A stretch of 64,000 nt of DNA from Mesoaciditoga lauensis cd-1655R = DSM 25116 (GTDB taxonomy: Bacteria > Thermotogota > Thermotogae > Mesoaciditogales > Mesoaciditogaceae), in NCBI RefSeq assembly GCF_000745455.1, contig NZ_JQJI01000002.1:62001-126000 (forward strand), written 5' to 3'. Each line of letters opens with the position of its first letter. Within the stretch, counting starts at the first letter, position 1. Positions 23,927 through 63,718 of the stretch are shown piece by piece. The notes under the pieces were generated by a model that was given only the letters and a program-made list of their open reading frames with translations, was not told the DNA's origin and did no database searches. A program made the position numbers and the translations under genes.

Positions 23927-24103
23927 TCGAGGTACTTGTCAGAACATATGAGCTCTCCAGCTGGAAATTCAAAATATGAGGTTGAAAGGCACAGGACGTG
24001 TTGAGAAAGCGAAGCACTCATGGATGAGTGTCTGAGCGTGCCTCGTTTTTTGAGTCGTAAGATGGATAAAAGAGTGAATCGTGCTGGCACGTGTTTTGAT
24101 TAA
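23927..24103. repeat. Dispersed cloverleaf repeat, chimeric copy (A left arm, C right arm)
   Basis: The left arm matches type A (GGTACTTGTCAGAAC, then ATTCAAAATATGAGG) while the right arm matches type C (GTTTTTTGAGTCGTAAGATGG, split, then GTGCTGGCAC). The outer arms therefore do not pair, but the inner hairpins GGCACAGGACGTGTT (wobble-paired) and CACTCATGGATGAGTG are kept. The 5' flank (23870-23920) resembles that of the copy at 56060. Confidence 0.85.
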
Positions 24104-24249: not shown

Positions 24250-24451
24250 ATTCGAAACACTCGCCAGCACTTATGAACTCGCCATCTGAAGACTCATAAA
24301 AACGAGGTTGGGAAACACACGGACGTGTTGAGAAAGCGAAGCACTCACGGATGAGTGTCTGAGCGTGCCTCGTTTTTTGAGTCGTAAGATGGGTAAAAGA
24401 GTGAATCGTGCTGGCTGGGTTTCGATAAATATTTTCTTGCACAACATGAGC
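24250..24451. repeat. Dispersed cloverleaf repeat, complete type C
   Basis: Long imperfect palindrome. Outer arms: ATTCGAAAC (24250) with GTTTCGAT (24419-24426), and CCAGCAC with GTGCTGG. Middle arms: CCATCT with AGATGG and GACTCATAAAAACGAG with CTCGTTTTTTGAGTC. Inner hairpins: AACACACGGACGTGTT and CACTCACGGATGAGTG. A terminal-repeat-like CTTGCACAACATGAG follows the right arm. Confidence 0.88.
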
Positions 24452-32332: not shown

Positions 32333-32503
32333 CTTGAAGTTTCTGTCAAAACATATGAAGACACCATACAAGATGCGAAATAACAGAGTTGGAGGCACAC
32401 GATGTGCCGAGAAAGCGAATCTAACAGGATGTTTGTATGCAGCGGGCTCTGTTATGAGCATCTTGTATGGGTATACGTCTGAATCAGTTTTGACAAAACT
32501 TCA
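32333..32503. repeat. Dispersed cloverleaf repeat, complete type B
   Basis: The outer arm TTGAAGTTTCTGTCAAAAC pairs with GTTTTGACAAAACTTCAA (32486-32503). CATACAAGATGC (32364-32375) pairs with GCATCTTGTATG (32457-32468), and ATAACAGAG (32379-32387) with CTCTGTTAT (32446-32454). The inner hairpins are GGCACACGATGTGCC (32393-32407) and AACAGGATGTT (32422-32432). Confidence 0.9.
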
Positions 32504-32645
32504 AAAAATTCTTTCTTGCATAATATGAACTTTGTTAGAAACACTCACAACTTTCTCCTACTCATTTCTTCCCTTACATGTTTAGCAGAACTTTGAAAAG
32601 ACTAGAAAAGGTATATAATTACCCTGGATAATTTGAAATTCAATC

Positions 32646-34145: not shown

Positions 34146-34324
34146 ATTTCGAAACACTTGCCAGCACTTATGAACTCTCCATCTGGAGACTCATAAAAAC
34201 GAGGTTGGGAAGCACACGGATGTGTTGAGAAAGCGAAGCACTCACGGACGAGTGTCTGAGCGTGCCTCGTTTTTTGAGTCGTAAGATGGATAAAAGAGTG
34301 AATTTGTGATGGCTAGTGTTTCGA
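34146..34324. repeat. Dispersed cloverleaf repeat, complete type C
   Basis: Near-identical to the copy at 24250: outer ATTTCGAAAC with GTTTCGAT, CCATCT with AGATGG, GACTCATAAAAACGAG with CTCGTTTTTTGAGTC, and inner hairpins GCACACGGATGTGTT and CACTCACGGACGAGTG. The outer CCAGCAC arm has decayed on the right side (TGTGATGGC). Confidence 0.87.
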
Positions 34325-34375
34325 TAAATATTTTTGTGTACAAGCCCCCCACCATTATCAACCACTAACTTGTTT

Positions 34376-40732: not shown

Positions 40733-40795
40733 ATAGAAAGTGAAAAGTGAACGGTAAACAGTGAACAGTGAGGAATTAGCAGTAAAAAGTTATAA

Positions 40796-40875: not shown

Positions 40876-41235
40876 TACTCACATTGTGCGTCAATGTTAC
40901 AAAGCATTTCAAAAAAGGGTTAAACCTCACCCTCGAAGTACTTGTCAGAACATATGAGCCCTCCATCTGGAAATTCAAAATATGAGGTTGAAAGGCACAG
41001 GACGTGCCGAGAAAGCGAAGCACTTACGGATGAGTGTCTGAGCGTGCCTCATATTTTGAATTGTAAGATGGAAAGAAGAGCGAATCCGTTCTGACAGGAC
41101 TTCGAAAAAAATTACCTTGGCCGCTTGGAAAGCGGGTATTTAGAATTGTATCCCACTGTGTTGCTCACATGTTCTCATAGAAATTTTTATGTCTCTTGTA
41201 ATGCTTTTCGTAATGTTCACGCACAACATGAGTAA
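40876..41235. mobile_element. Full-length 360-bp MITE-like element, type A
   Basis: Imperfect terminal inverted repeats of 26 bases (40876-40901 and 41210-41235) match at 21 positions; both ends read TTACTCA...TTGTGCGT outward-in. Between them lies the large hairpin: CGAAGTACTTGTCAGAAC with GTTCTGACAGGACTTCG, CCATCT (40963-40968) with AGATGG (41066-41071), ATTCAAAATATGAGG with CATATTTTGAAT, and inner hairpins GGCACAGGACGTGCC and CACTTACGGATGAGTG. The 3' part (41105-41210) is AT-rich and conserved in other copies. No coding capacity. Confidence 0.85.
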
Positions 41236-42872: not shown

Positions 42873-42957
42873 GTACTCATGTTCTGACAAACACTTCGAG
42901 GGTGAGGTTTAATCCTTTTTTGAAATACTTTGTAACATTGACGCACAGGTTGAGTAA
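42873..42957. repeat. Internally deleted copy of the MITE-like element
   Basis: Read on the minus strand, it starts with a terminal repeat (TTACTCAACCTGTGCGTC), contains the normal 5' flank and the first arm (CGAAGTGTTTGTCAGAAC), then jumps directly to the last bases of the element (ATGAGTAC). The whole hairpin and 3' part are gone; a shared AACATGAG at the joint suggests deletion at microhomology. Confidence 0.75.
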
Positions 42958-53410: not shown

Positions 53411-53670
53411 TCGAAGTACTTGTCAGAACATATGAGCTCTCCATCTGGAGATTCATAAATATGAGGTTGAGAGGCACAGGACGTGCCGAGAAAGCGAAGC
53501 CTCACGGACGAGTGTCTGAGCGTGCATCATATTTTGAATTGTAAGATGGAAAGAAGAGCGAATCCGTTCTGACAGGACTTCGAAAAAAATCACCTTGACT
53601 GCTTGGAAAGCGGTAGTAAAATGTCAAAGGATGCTATTATTCGAAATATGTTATCCACACAATTTGGTAA
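53411..53670. repeat. Dispersed cloverleaf repeat, type A with divergent 3' flank
   Basis: Hairpin 53411-53582: CGAAGTACTTGTCAGAAC with GTTCTGACAGGACTTCG, CCATCT with AGATGG, inner GGCACAGGACGTGCC and a shortened second hairpin (CTCACGGACGAG). The 3' flank 53590-53670 (GCTTGGAAAGCGGTAG onward) differs from that of the other A copies and is found in reverse complement at 27621-27690. Confidence 0.87.
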
Positions 53671-54134: not shown

Positions 54135-54301
54135 TTTTCTCACCCCTTTGTGAAATATTTAACTCATACTTATTATAGCACTATTTGTTCTTTTTTTCAC
54201 GTTAAATGTTAAGAAGTTTTTTTGATTCAAAGTAAATTCATTTTCTAAAATTATACGATTGTTTAAATGAGAAAATGGTTCTCATGTTGTAAGAAGAATT
54301 T

Positions 54302-54472
54302 TTGAAGTTTTGTCAAAACCGATTCAGACGTATACCCACACAAGATGCTCATAACAGAGCCCGCTGCATACAAACGTCCTGTTAGATTCGCTTTCTCGGC
54401 ACGTCCTGTGCCTCCAACTCTGTTATTTCGCATCTTGTGTGGCGTCTTCATATGTTTTGACAGAAACTACAA
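54302..54472. repeat. Dispersed cloverleaf repeat, complete type B, reversed
   Basis: Reverse complement of the copy at 32333. Outer arms TTGAAGTTTTGTCAAAAC and GTTTTGACAGAAACT; CACACAAGATGC (54337-54348) with GCATCTTGTGTG (54430-54441); ATAACAGAG with CTCTGTTAT; inner GGCACGTCCTGTGCC. Compared with 32333 one stem pair changed on both sides, keeping the pairing. Confidence 0.9.
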
Positions 54473-54493
54473 ATTTTTATTATCGTATAATGG

Positions 54494-54856
54494 ACTCAAC
54501 CTGTGCGTCAATGTTACAAAGCATTTCAAAAAGGGATTAAATCTCACTCTCGAAGTACTTGTCAGAACGTATGAGCTCCCCGTCTGAAGATTCAAAATAT
54601 GAGGTTGAGAGGCACAGGACGTGCCGAGAAAGCGAAGCACTCACGGACGAGTGTCTGAGCGTGCCTCATATTTTGAATTGGAAGGCGGAAAGAAGAGCGA
54701 ATTCGTTCTGACAGGACTTCGAAAAAATTGCTTTGACCGCTTGGAAAGCGGGTTTTAAATCAAAAAGTGTTGTTAAATGCTGCTTATATGTTTTCATAGA
54801 AAATTTTTGTAATGTCTCTTGTAATACTTTTCGTAATGTTCACGCACAACATGAGT
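54494..54856. mobile_element. Full-length 363-bp MITE-like element, type A
   Basis: Terminal inverted repeats at 54494-54517 and 54833-54856 (ACTCAACCTGTGCGTC / CACGCACAACATGAGT). The hairpin has CGAAGTACTTGTCAGAAC with GTTCTGACAGGACTTCG; CCGTCT (54580-54585) with AGGCGG (54683-54688), a covariant of CCATCT/AGATGG; ATTCAAAATATGAGG with CCTCATATTTTGAAT; and inner hairpins GGCACAGGACGTGCC and CACTCACGGACGAGTG. Same 5' and 3' flanks as the 40876 copy. Confidence 0.88.
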
Positions 54857-55009
54857 AATGGAAAACAATGATTAGGTGATAAGCTCAGAGTCTAATAAAT
54901 TAGTAGGGATAGATTCAAATGAAAAACAGGGGAAGGAGTTGGTTGACTTTTTTGGGCCTGGCATACTTTAAATTCAGCATGGAATAAATCAGACAAAAAG
55001 GAGGATAAG

Positions 55010-56059: not shown

Positions 56060-56420
56060 AGCACGTGAAAAGCAACTACAAAGCACGAAGCTAATCAAGA
56101 AATTAATTCTCATCCTCGAAGTACTTGTCAGAACATATGAGTTTTCCATCTGAAGACTCATAAAAACGAAGTTGGGAAACACACGGATGTGTTGAGAAAG
56201 CGAGGCACTCGCGGATGAGTGTCTGAGCGTGCCTCGTTTTTTGAGTCGTAAGATGGATAAGAGAGCGAATCCGTTCTGACAAGCACTTCGAAAAAAATGC
56301 CTTGACAGCTTGGAAAGCGGGTTTTAAATCAAAAGTATCGTCAAATGTGGTTCACATGTTCTCATAGGGAGATTAATGCTTCTTGTAATACCTTTCGTAA
56401 CGTTCGCGCACAGCATGAGA
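56060..56420. mobile_element. MITE-like element, A/C hybrid with near-full length
   Basis: The outer arms are type A (TCGAAGTACTTGTCAGAAC, GTTCTGACAAGCACTTCGA) but the inner arms are type C (GACTCATAAAAACGAA with CTCGTTTTTTGAGTC, AACACACGGATGTGTT). The 3' flank GCTTGGAAAGCGGG... and the end CGTAACGTTCGCGCACAGCA match the full A elements. The 5' end is less clear and resembles the flank at 23870. Confidence 0.82.
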
Positions 56421-63538: not shown

Positions 63539-63558
63539 ATCGTGCGAAAGACAATTTT

Positions 63559-63718
63559 TTCGAAGTCCTGTCAGAGCGAATTCGCTCTTTTTCCATTTTC
63601 AATTCAAAATATGCCATGAGTGGCTTCGCTTTCTCGGCACGTCCTGTGCCTCTCAATTCTGTTATAAGCATCTTGTATGGATATACACATCTGAATTGGT
63701 TTTGACAAAACTTCAAAA
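63559..63718. repeat. Dispersed repeat, chimeric copy (A and B arms)
   Basis: Left end TTCGAAGTCCTGTCAGAGCG and AATTCAAAATATG are type A (reversed). The right end ATAAGCATCTTGTATGG and GTTTTGACAAAACTTCAA are type B. Shared inner hairpin GGCACGTCCTGTGCC, and a shortened GCCATGAGTGGC. The arms cannot pair with each other along their length, so it looks like a recombinant. Confidence 0.82.

Follow-up and report, generated by a model that had tools for sequence, protein, structure and literature searches.

A MITE-like element family of Mesoaciditoga lauensis carries a constrained branched hairpin that is very probably related to the TwoAYGGAY RNA motif

Background

REP/BIME sequences and similar palindromic repeats of bacteria are intergenic, palindromic and found in paired arrangements. 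The TwoAYGGAY RNA family (RF01731) has been described from Clostridiales and gut metagenomes (PMC2864571). A tandem-GA motif has been reported for this family, and it has been proposed, as a motif-based hypothesis, to bind CsrA (PMC4333381). The QMITE1 and QMITE2 elements of Coxiella burnetii are MITEs that serve as a source of sRNAs (PMC5896051), and the CsrB/RsmZ sponge RNAs are encoded by single-locus regulated sRNA genes (PMC4383904).

The element family of Mesoaciditoga lauensis analysed here has features in common with each of these systems. With TwoAYGGAY it shares two arms with AYGGAY loops, the tandem-GA motif, an outer stem and the loci and strand picked by models of both in g18, a genus of another Thermotogota family. 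However, the outer stem differs, the copies of the host genome score below the Rfam gathering cut-off, and the host module resides on elements with terminal inverted repeats (TIRs) and target-site duplications (TSDs) at about 100 copies per Mb, whereas the published family is not annotated as mobile (PMC2864571, PMC4333381). QMITE1 and QMITE2 are likewise dispersed elements of 300-400 bp with TIRs and without transposase, and a potential source of sRNAs, but QMITE1 has direct repeats of 2-3 nt and about 50 copies (PMC5896051) as against the TSDs of 7-8 bp seen here, and in the host element the ends are less conserved than the payload, which has a relative among the structural families of Rfam. 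REP/BIME (PMC3733652) are comparable in their intergenic location, palindromic nature and paired arrangements, whereas the host core is a branched hairpin of about 175 nt within elements bounded by TIRs and TSDs. Paired GGA hairpin loops are common to the core and to CsrB/RsmZ (PMC4383904), but the host copies are dispersed and mobile and their binding to CsrA is a prediction from sequence.

Results and discussion

The element and its copies in the window

The window is a stretch of 64,000 nucleotides of the genome of the thermophilic bacterium M. lauensis (contig NZ_JQJI01000002.1, positions 62,001 to 126,000). It contains ten cores in addition to TIR fragments such as that at 42879-42956 (Table 1). 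A previous sequence-only reading had placed an element with imperfect inverted-repeat ends at 40876-41235. The element is real, but these bounds are 2-3 bp too wide, the exact ends being CTCA at 40878 and TGAG at 41232; the inverted repeats are also real, although with the corrected ends 20 and not 21 of the 26 positions are identical. Inspection of the flanks of this copy revealed no recognisable TSD. Two copies, and largely a third, had been described as alike over their whole length. The second (54495-54855) is indeed full length and carries a TSD, but the third has a degenerate 5' end. The large central fold is borne out, with a folding energy of -77.5 kcal/mol (z = -9.6).

Table 1. Positions of the element, its parts and related copies in the window
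Feature	Position	Strand	Basis
Complete TIR-to-TIR element, type A, 355 bp	40878..41232	+	alignment of 40 copies
5' terminal inverted repeat CTCACATTGTGCGTCAATGTTACAAA	40878..40903	+	
3' terminal inverted repeat, reverse complement CTCATGTTGTGCGTGAACATTACGAA, 20/26 identical to 5' end	41207..41232	-	
Core, long hairpin with three-way junction, TwoAYGGAY-like	40933..41108	+	nhmmer, covariation, covariance model R1, fold z = -9.6
Arm 1 GGCAC-AGGAC-GTGCC, GGA loop 40999-41003	40994..41008	+	
Arm 2 CACTT-ACGGAT-GAGTG, AYGGAY loop 41026-41031	41021..41036	+	
Base of arm 2, tandem-GA internal loop (GCGAAGC / TCTGAGC)	41015..41043	+	direct reading; conserved
Small 3' hairpin CCGCTTGGAAAGCGG	41121..41135	+	direct reading; copy alignment
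Second full-length copy, TSD TAATGGA at 54488-54494 and 54856-54862	54495..54855	+	
Core of third copy, hybrid of types A/B; 3' TIR 56397-56419, 5' end degenerate	56116..56294	+	
Core without recognisable TIRs	23927..24099	+	
Type B core, AYGGAY in both loops; RF01731 24.3 bits, below cut-off	24252..24428	+	
Type C core	32335..32506	+	
Type B core	34149..34327	+	
Type A core	53411..53586	+	
Divergent core adjoining the copy at 54495	54300..54470	-	
Degenerate core	63558..63716	-	
5' end fragment, intact TIR 42932-42954	42879..42956	-	

At the Rfam gathering threshold the window contains only tRNAs and a TPP riboswitch (RF00059, 61.9 bits, 1559-1665). Other short repeat families, comprising GTGAACAGTGA-like runs and GTCTGCCCCCACTTGTGGGGGAAGTGTCGGC hairpins, occur in the same intergenic regions (about 40740-40775 of the window and other stretches of the host genome).

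Ends, copy number and mobility

The stretches of the host genome (G000) considered in the current analysis cover 1.82 of 2.17 Mb (84%). The TIR pattern CTCANNNTGTGCGTNAAYRTTAC has 241 matches genome-wide (123+118) as against 3 (2+1) for the reversed control, and 7 matches in the window where 0.02 are expected. The ends of the family have the general form CTC(A/T)NNN(T)GTGCGTNAA, abbreviated CTC(A/T)NNNTGTGCGTNAA. Whole-genome BLAST gave 265 candidates, of which 40 scored as near-full copies, and the reported copies are thus real and far beyond chance. A MAFFT alignment of 40 copies with their flanks has abrupt boundaries at CTCA.../...TGAG, pairwise identity being 0.28-0.32 outside and 0.78-0.94 inside the element (TIRs 0.83-0.90, 3' spacer 0.78, core 0.94). 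The sequence-only reading had staked itself on sharp boundaries and on further copies in the genome, and both came out in its favour.

Pairing of the TIRs gave element lengths of mostly 354-366 bp. Exact TSDs of 7-8 bp flank 23 of the 69 TIR-bounded elements, as against about 0.4 expected with shuffled partners; 19 are of 7 bp and 4 of 8 bp, and a further 6 elements have duplications of 6 bp (expected about 0.3 for 6 bp, about 0.3 for 7 bp and 0.05 for 8 bp). Insertion is therefore accompanied by duplication of 7-8 bp of target. The targets are AT-rich. Insertions at G000:C9:1610 and C11:42792 directly adjoin TATAAT-like sequences, so that promoters, or AT-rich DNA in general, may be preferred as targets. 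A profile search (>60 bits) identified 188 cores in the 1.82 Mb, about 103 per Mb. None lies inside a called gene, as had been claimed for the related pieces of the window; the genes were called with a simple codon-usage caller of our own and not with a published gene finder.

No transposase ORF was found between matching TIRs in the 1.82 of 2.17 Mb, which makes this an orphan MITE family in 84% of the genome; an autonomous relative was not found in this span either. The longest clean TIR pair (G000:C3:562-2938, L085) was considered as an autonomous element and rejected. A group II intron, which encodes a reverse transcriptase of 456 aa, has split this element copy immediately next to its core hairpin. 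Other long TIR pairs enclose ordinary genes and their end matches are unrelated or weak. The IS256 (C29, C64) and DDE_Tnp_1 (C14) transposase loci that were inspected have no matching TIRs by eye. Multicopy IS were not found by self-BLAST of six contigs, and element copies are absent from the plasmid, phage and viral collections searched.

The single site aligned across the junction in a sister species (G012, 83% DNA identity) is occupied with the hairpin deleted, and a clean empty orthologous site was not found in this comparison. This insertion thus predates the split of the species, and copies decay. On the sharp TIRs, the TSDs, the high copy number, the lack of coding capacity and the absence of a transposase between matching ends, the MITE-like layout first read from the window holds, and the family is almost certainly one of non-autonomous DNA transposons (MITEs).

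Structure of the core hairpin

What that reading had missed is that the central fold, which it called unusual, is separable from the MITE. Cores occur also outside TIRs, in pairs, and with different ends in other genera. Three subfamilies are distinguished, namely type A, mostly found in elements of 355-365 bp, and types B and C, which are often arranged in pairs, head to tail, with about 40 bp between them. Examples of such pairs in the host genome are C1:65325-65710, C64:84182-84566 and C65:14103-14488, often preceded by half a type C hairpin. At least one B/C pair lies inside a longer element with the ends CTCTTAATGTG..CACATTAAGAG (C64:64384-64887).

In all the subfamilies a long hairpin leads through a three-way junction to two arms that end in A(Y)GGAY loops, and there is a tandem-GA motif. 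Loops of the A(Y)GGAY form are present in 67 of 69 copies (GGA in arm 1), and arm 2 almost always has AYGGAY; loop 1 is AGGAY in type A and CGA, without GGA, in type C. The consensus structure comprises 63 pairs with 93.7% of the cells paired. Two-sided changes are seen in 26 of the 63 pairs as against a shuffle mean of 14.8 (none of 500 shuffles reached 26) and at most 13 in slid versions of the structure, a covariation that is strong overall but reflects few events since much of it separates two subfamilies (the A/B split). A strong fold is obtained for the opposite strand, too (z = -7.7).

Sequence constraint on the core

When 155 cores were placed on a tree computed with the loop columns excluded, the GGA columns showed 0-2 changes per site, compared with 30, 49 and 42 at the loop pyrimidines. 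Across 43 full-length elements the median number of changes per site is 0 in the core, 2 in the TIRs and 3 in the 3' spacer. Special hypermutation of the loop pyrimidines was considered and rejected: their rate is no higher than that of the other transition hot spots in the element, so that nothing special mutates them and it is the remaining positions that are held back. Within the genome, both the sequence and the fold of the module are strongly constrained.

Conservation of this kind would also be seen if the hairpin acted as a DNA structure that transposition requires or prefers, through cruciform or single-strand recognition and with no role as RNA, because only elements with intact cores would then be copied. 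The TSDs and TIRs prove mobility, individual copies decay, as exemplified by the hairpin-deleted ortholog, and both strands fold, all of which suits such an explanation. The contrast between core and remainder nevertheless persists on terminal branches, with 1.03 as against 2.1-2.6 changes per site. This roughly twofold deficit suggests that the constraint is not confined to the copies that seed others, although terminal branches may include time during which a copy was active. An invariant GGA beside freely changing pyrimidines, as in the described RNA family (PMC2864571), also speaks against a role in transposition only, which we regard as somewhat unlikely.

Relation to TwoAYGGAY

RF01731 belongs to the Rfam clan of CsrA-binding RNAs (CL00106) and has a gathering cut-off of 43 bits. 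The copies of the host genome lie below this cut-off, and no match at E<=0.001 was found genome-wide. RF01731 is the best Rfam match of a type B copy (24.3 bits, window 24284-24390), and a type A copy searched alone gave only chance matches to miRNAs. In genus g18, where alone the cut-off is exceeded, RF01731 scores 45.5 bits at 1839-1979 of locus L059; it scores 40.9 bits at locus L052, which is homologous by BLAST to the window element.

A covariance model, R1, was built from the bacterial family of the host (f1) only and contains no g18 sequence. A search of relatives with such a model, suggested along with the sequence-only reading, gave matches in 14 of 103 Thermotogota genomes, representing seven genera. 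Four of the matches in g18 (G043:C2:50345-50456, G042:C2:1777819-1777945, G042:C2:565917-566043 and G039:C35:17290-17413) lie inside RF01731 matches on the same strand. The homology thus runs both ways, as R1 picks the same loci and strand as RF01731 without having seen g18 sequences. The core is very probably homologous to the TwoAYGGAY motif. The resemblance could instead be accidental, two GGA loops having arisen on an ordinary palindrome, and the sub-threshold scores in the host genome are what one would expect of that. Such convergence is highly improbable in view of two independently built models that, in a third lineage, pick out identical loci on the same strand, a junction similar at the BLAST level to g18 elements, and a tandem-GA motif common to core and TwoAYGGAY (PMC4333381).

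The TwoAYGGAY members of g18 are also dispersed repeats. They are palindromes of about 204 bp with AT-rich inverted ends of their own, CAAAATAAAATA..TATTTTATTTTG (L134 1468-1670 and L136 1478-1681; G040 and G038). That copies scoring in Rfam are themselves dispersed repeats of about 200 bp fits a hairpin that serves transposition only, in which case TwoAYGGAY of Thermotogota would be a piece of mobile DNA and not an RNA gene; the recurrence of cores in different genera with different ends argues against it.

Strand and orientation to genes

Among departures from Watson-Crick pairs, G-U outnumbers A-C on the GGA strand by 156 to 95 (p = 1.4e-4), an excess that is weaker when capped per column pair (83 vs 63, p = 0.12). 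Between co-directional genes, type B cores are antisense in 29 cases and sense in 5 (p = 4e-5), with the 3' end of the core at a median of 75 bp from the stop codon, so that read-through from the neighbour yields the non-GGA strand. Type A is antisense in 23 cases and sense in 14, which is not significant. These observations suggest that it is the GGA strand that matters and that it is selected against in sense transcripts, the alternative being a preference in insertion. Both biases are strand-specific, which speaks against a hairpin acting purely as DNA.

The position of type B past stop codons and the strong fold of the reverse strand could also mean that, at the 3' ends of genes, the non-GGA strand affects transcription or the decay of mRNA, as a bidirectional roadblock or a stabilising 3' UTR hairpin. 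We consider this improbable, as neither strand showed a U-tract or a terminator signal on scanning and direct reading, the G-U bias favours the GGA strand and the orientation bias of type A is not significant. Promoter and terminator signals around the element were at background in the scan, none being above chance.

CsrA and a possible role at the RNA level

The host genome encodes CsrA (G000:C64:5203-5358, 76.7 bits). An ORF that reads as FliW-like by its sequence precedes csrA (L120 1076-1725). The g2 genomes have CsrA, and the R1 search found no element copies in them.

We are inclined to the combined reading that a MITE has amplified a TwoAYGGAY-like GGA-hairpin module that probably functions at the RNA level, and to a similar degree we favour the view that the constraint acts on the RNA. 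CsrA is put forward only tentatively as the predicted partner, and its binding or sponging by the core is what we infer from the paired GGA loops. On the other side stand the sub-threshold RF01731 scores, the promoter and terminator signals at background, the strong fold of the opposite strand, the G-U bias that weakens on capping, the few events behind the covariation, the CGA in loop 1 of type C, the hairpin lost from the orthologous copy, the lack of copies in the g2 genomes despite their CsrA, and the antisense placement. That a selfish MITE spreads a predicted CsrA-binding module, more than 200 dispersed copies of which jointly titrate or locally recruit CsrA, is a speculative and rather doubtful extension.

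The proposed mechanism would be as follows. A putative transposase would recognise the CTC(A/T)NNN(T)GTGCGTNAA ends, and the element inserts into AT-rich intergenic targets with duplication of 7-8 bp. Its payload is a separable and older module, the hairpin of about 175 nt with two GGA-loop arms. The strand with the GGA loops may act as RNA and offer paired GGA hairpins to CsrA, which would be the most likely reason for the constraint, either through numerous short transcripts that serve as sponges or as a handle for CsrA or structure in the transcripts around each copy. The orientation of one subfamily opposite to genes suggests that the GGA strand would be disfavoured in the mRNAs of the genes themselves.

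Implications

With about 100 copies per Mb of a MITE that each carry a conserved TwoAYGGAY-related hairpin, a candidate regulatory RNA rides on mobile DNA. An Rfam family of suspected CsrA binding is thereby linked to a high-copy mobile element, and the more than 150 natural variants in one genome reveal exactly which bases are constrained. Two ideas become testable, that TwoAYGGAY RNAs bind CsrA and that bacterial MITEs amplify regulatory RNA as eukaryotic transposons do. The finding is also a warning that some families of structured RNA may owe their amplification to transposition. If the proposal is true, TwoAYGGAY, an orphan Rfam family, would be in Thermotogota a protein sponge borne by a mobile element and selected copy by copy.
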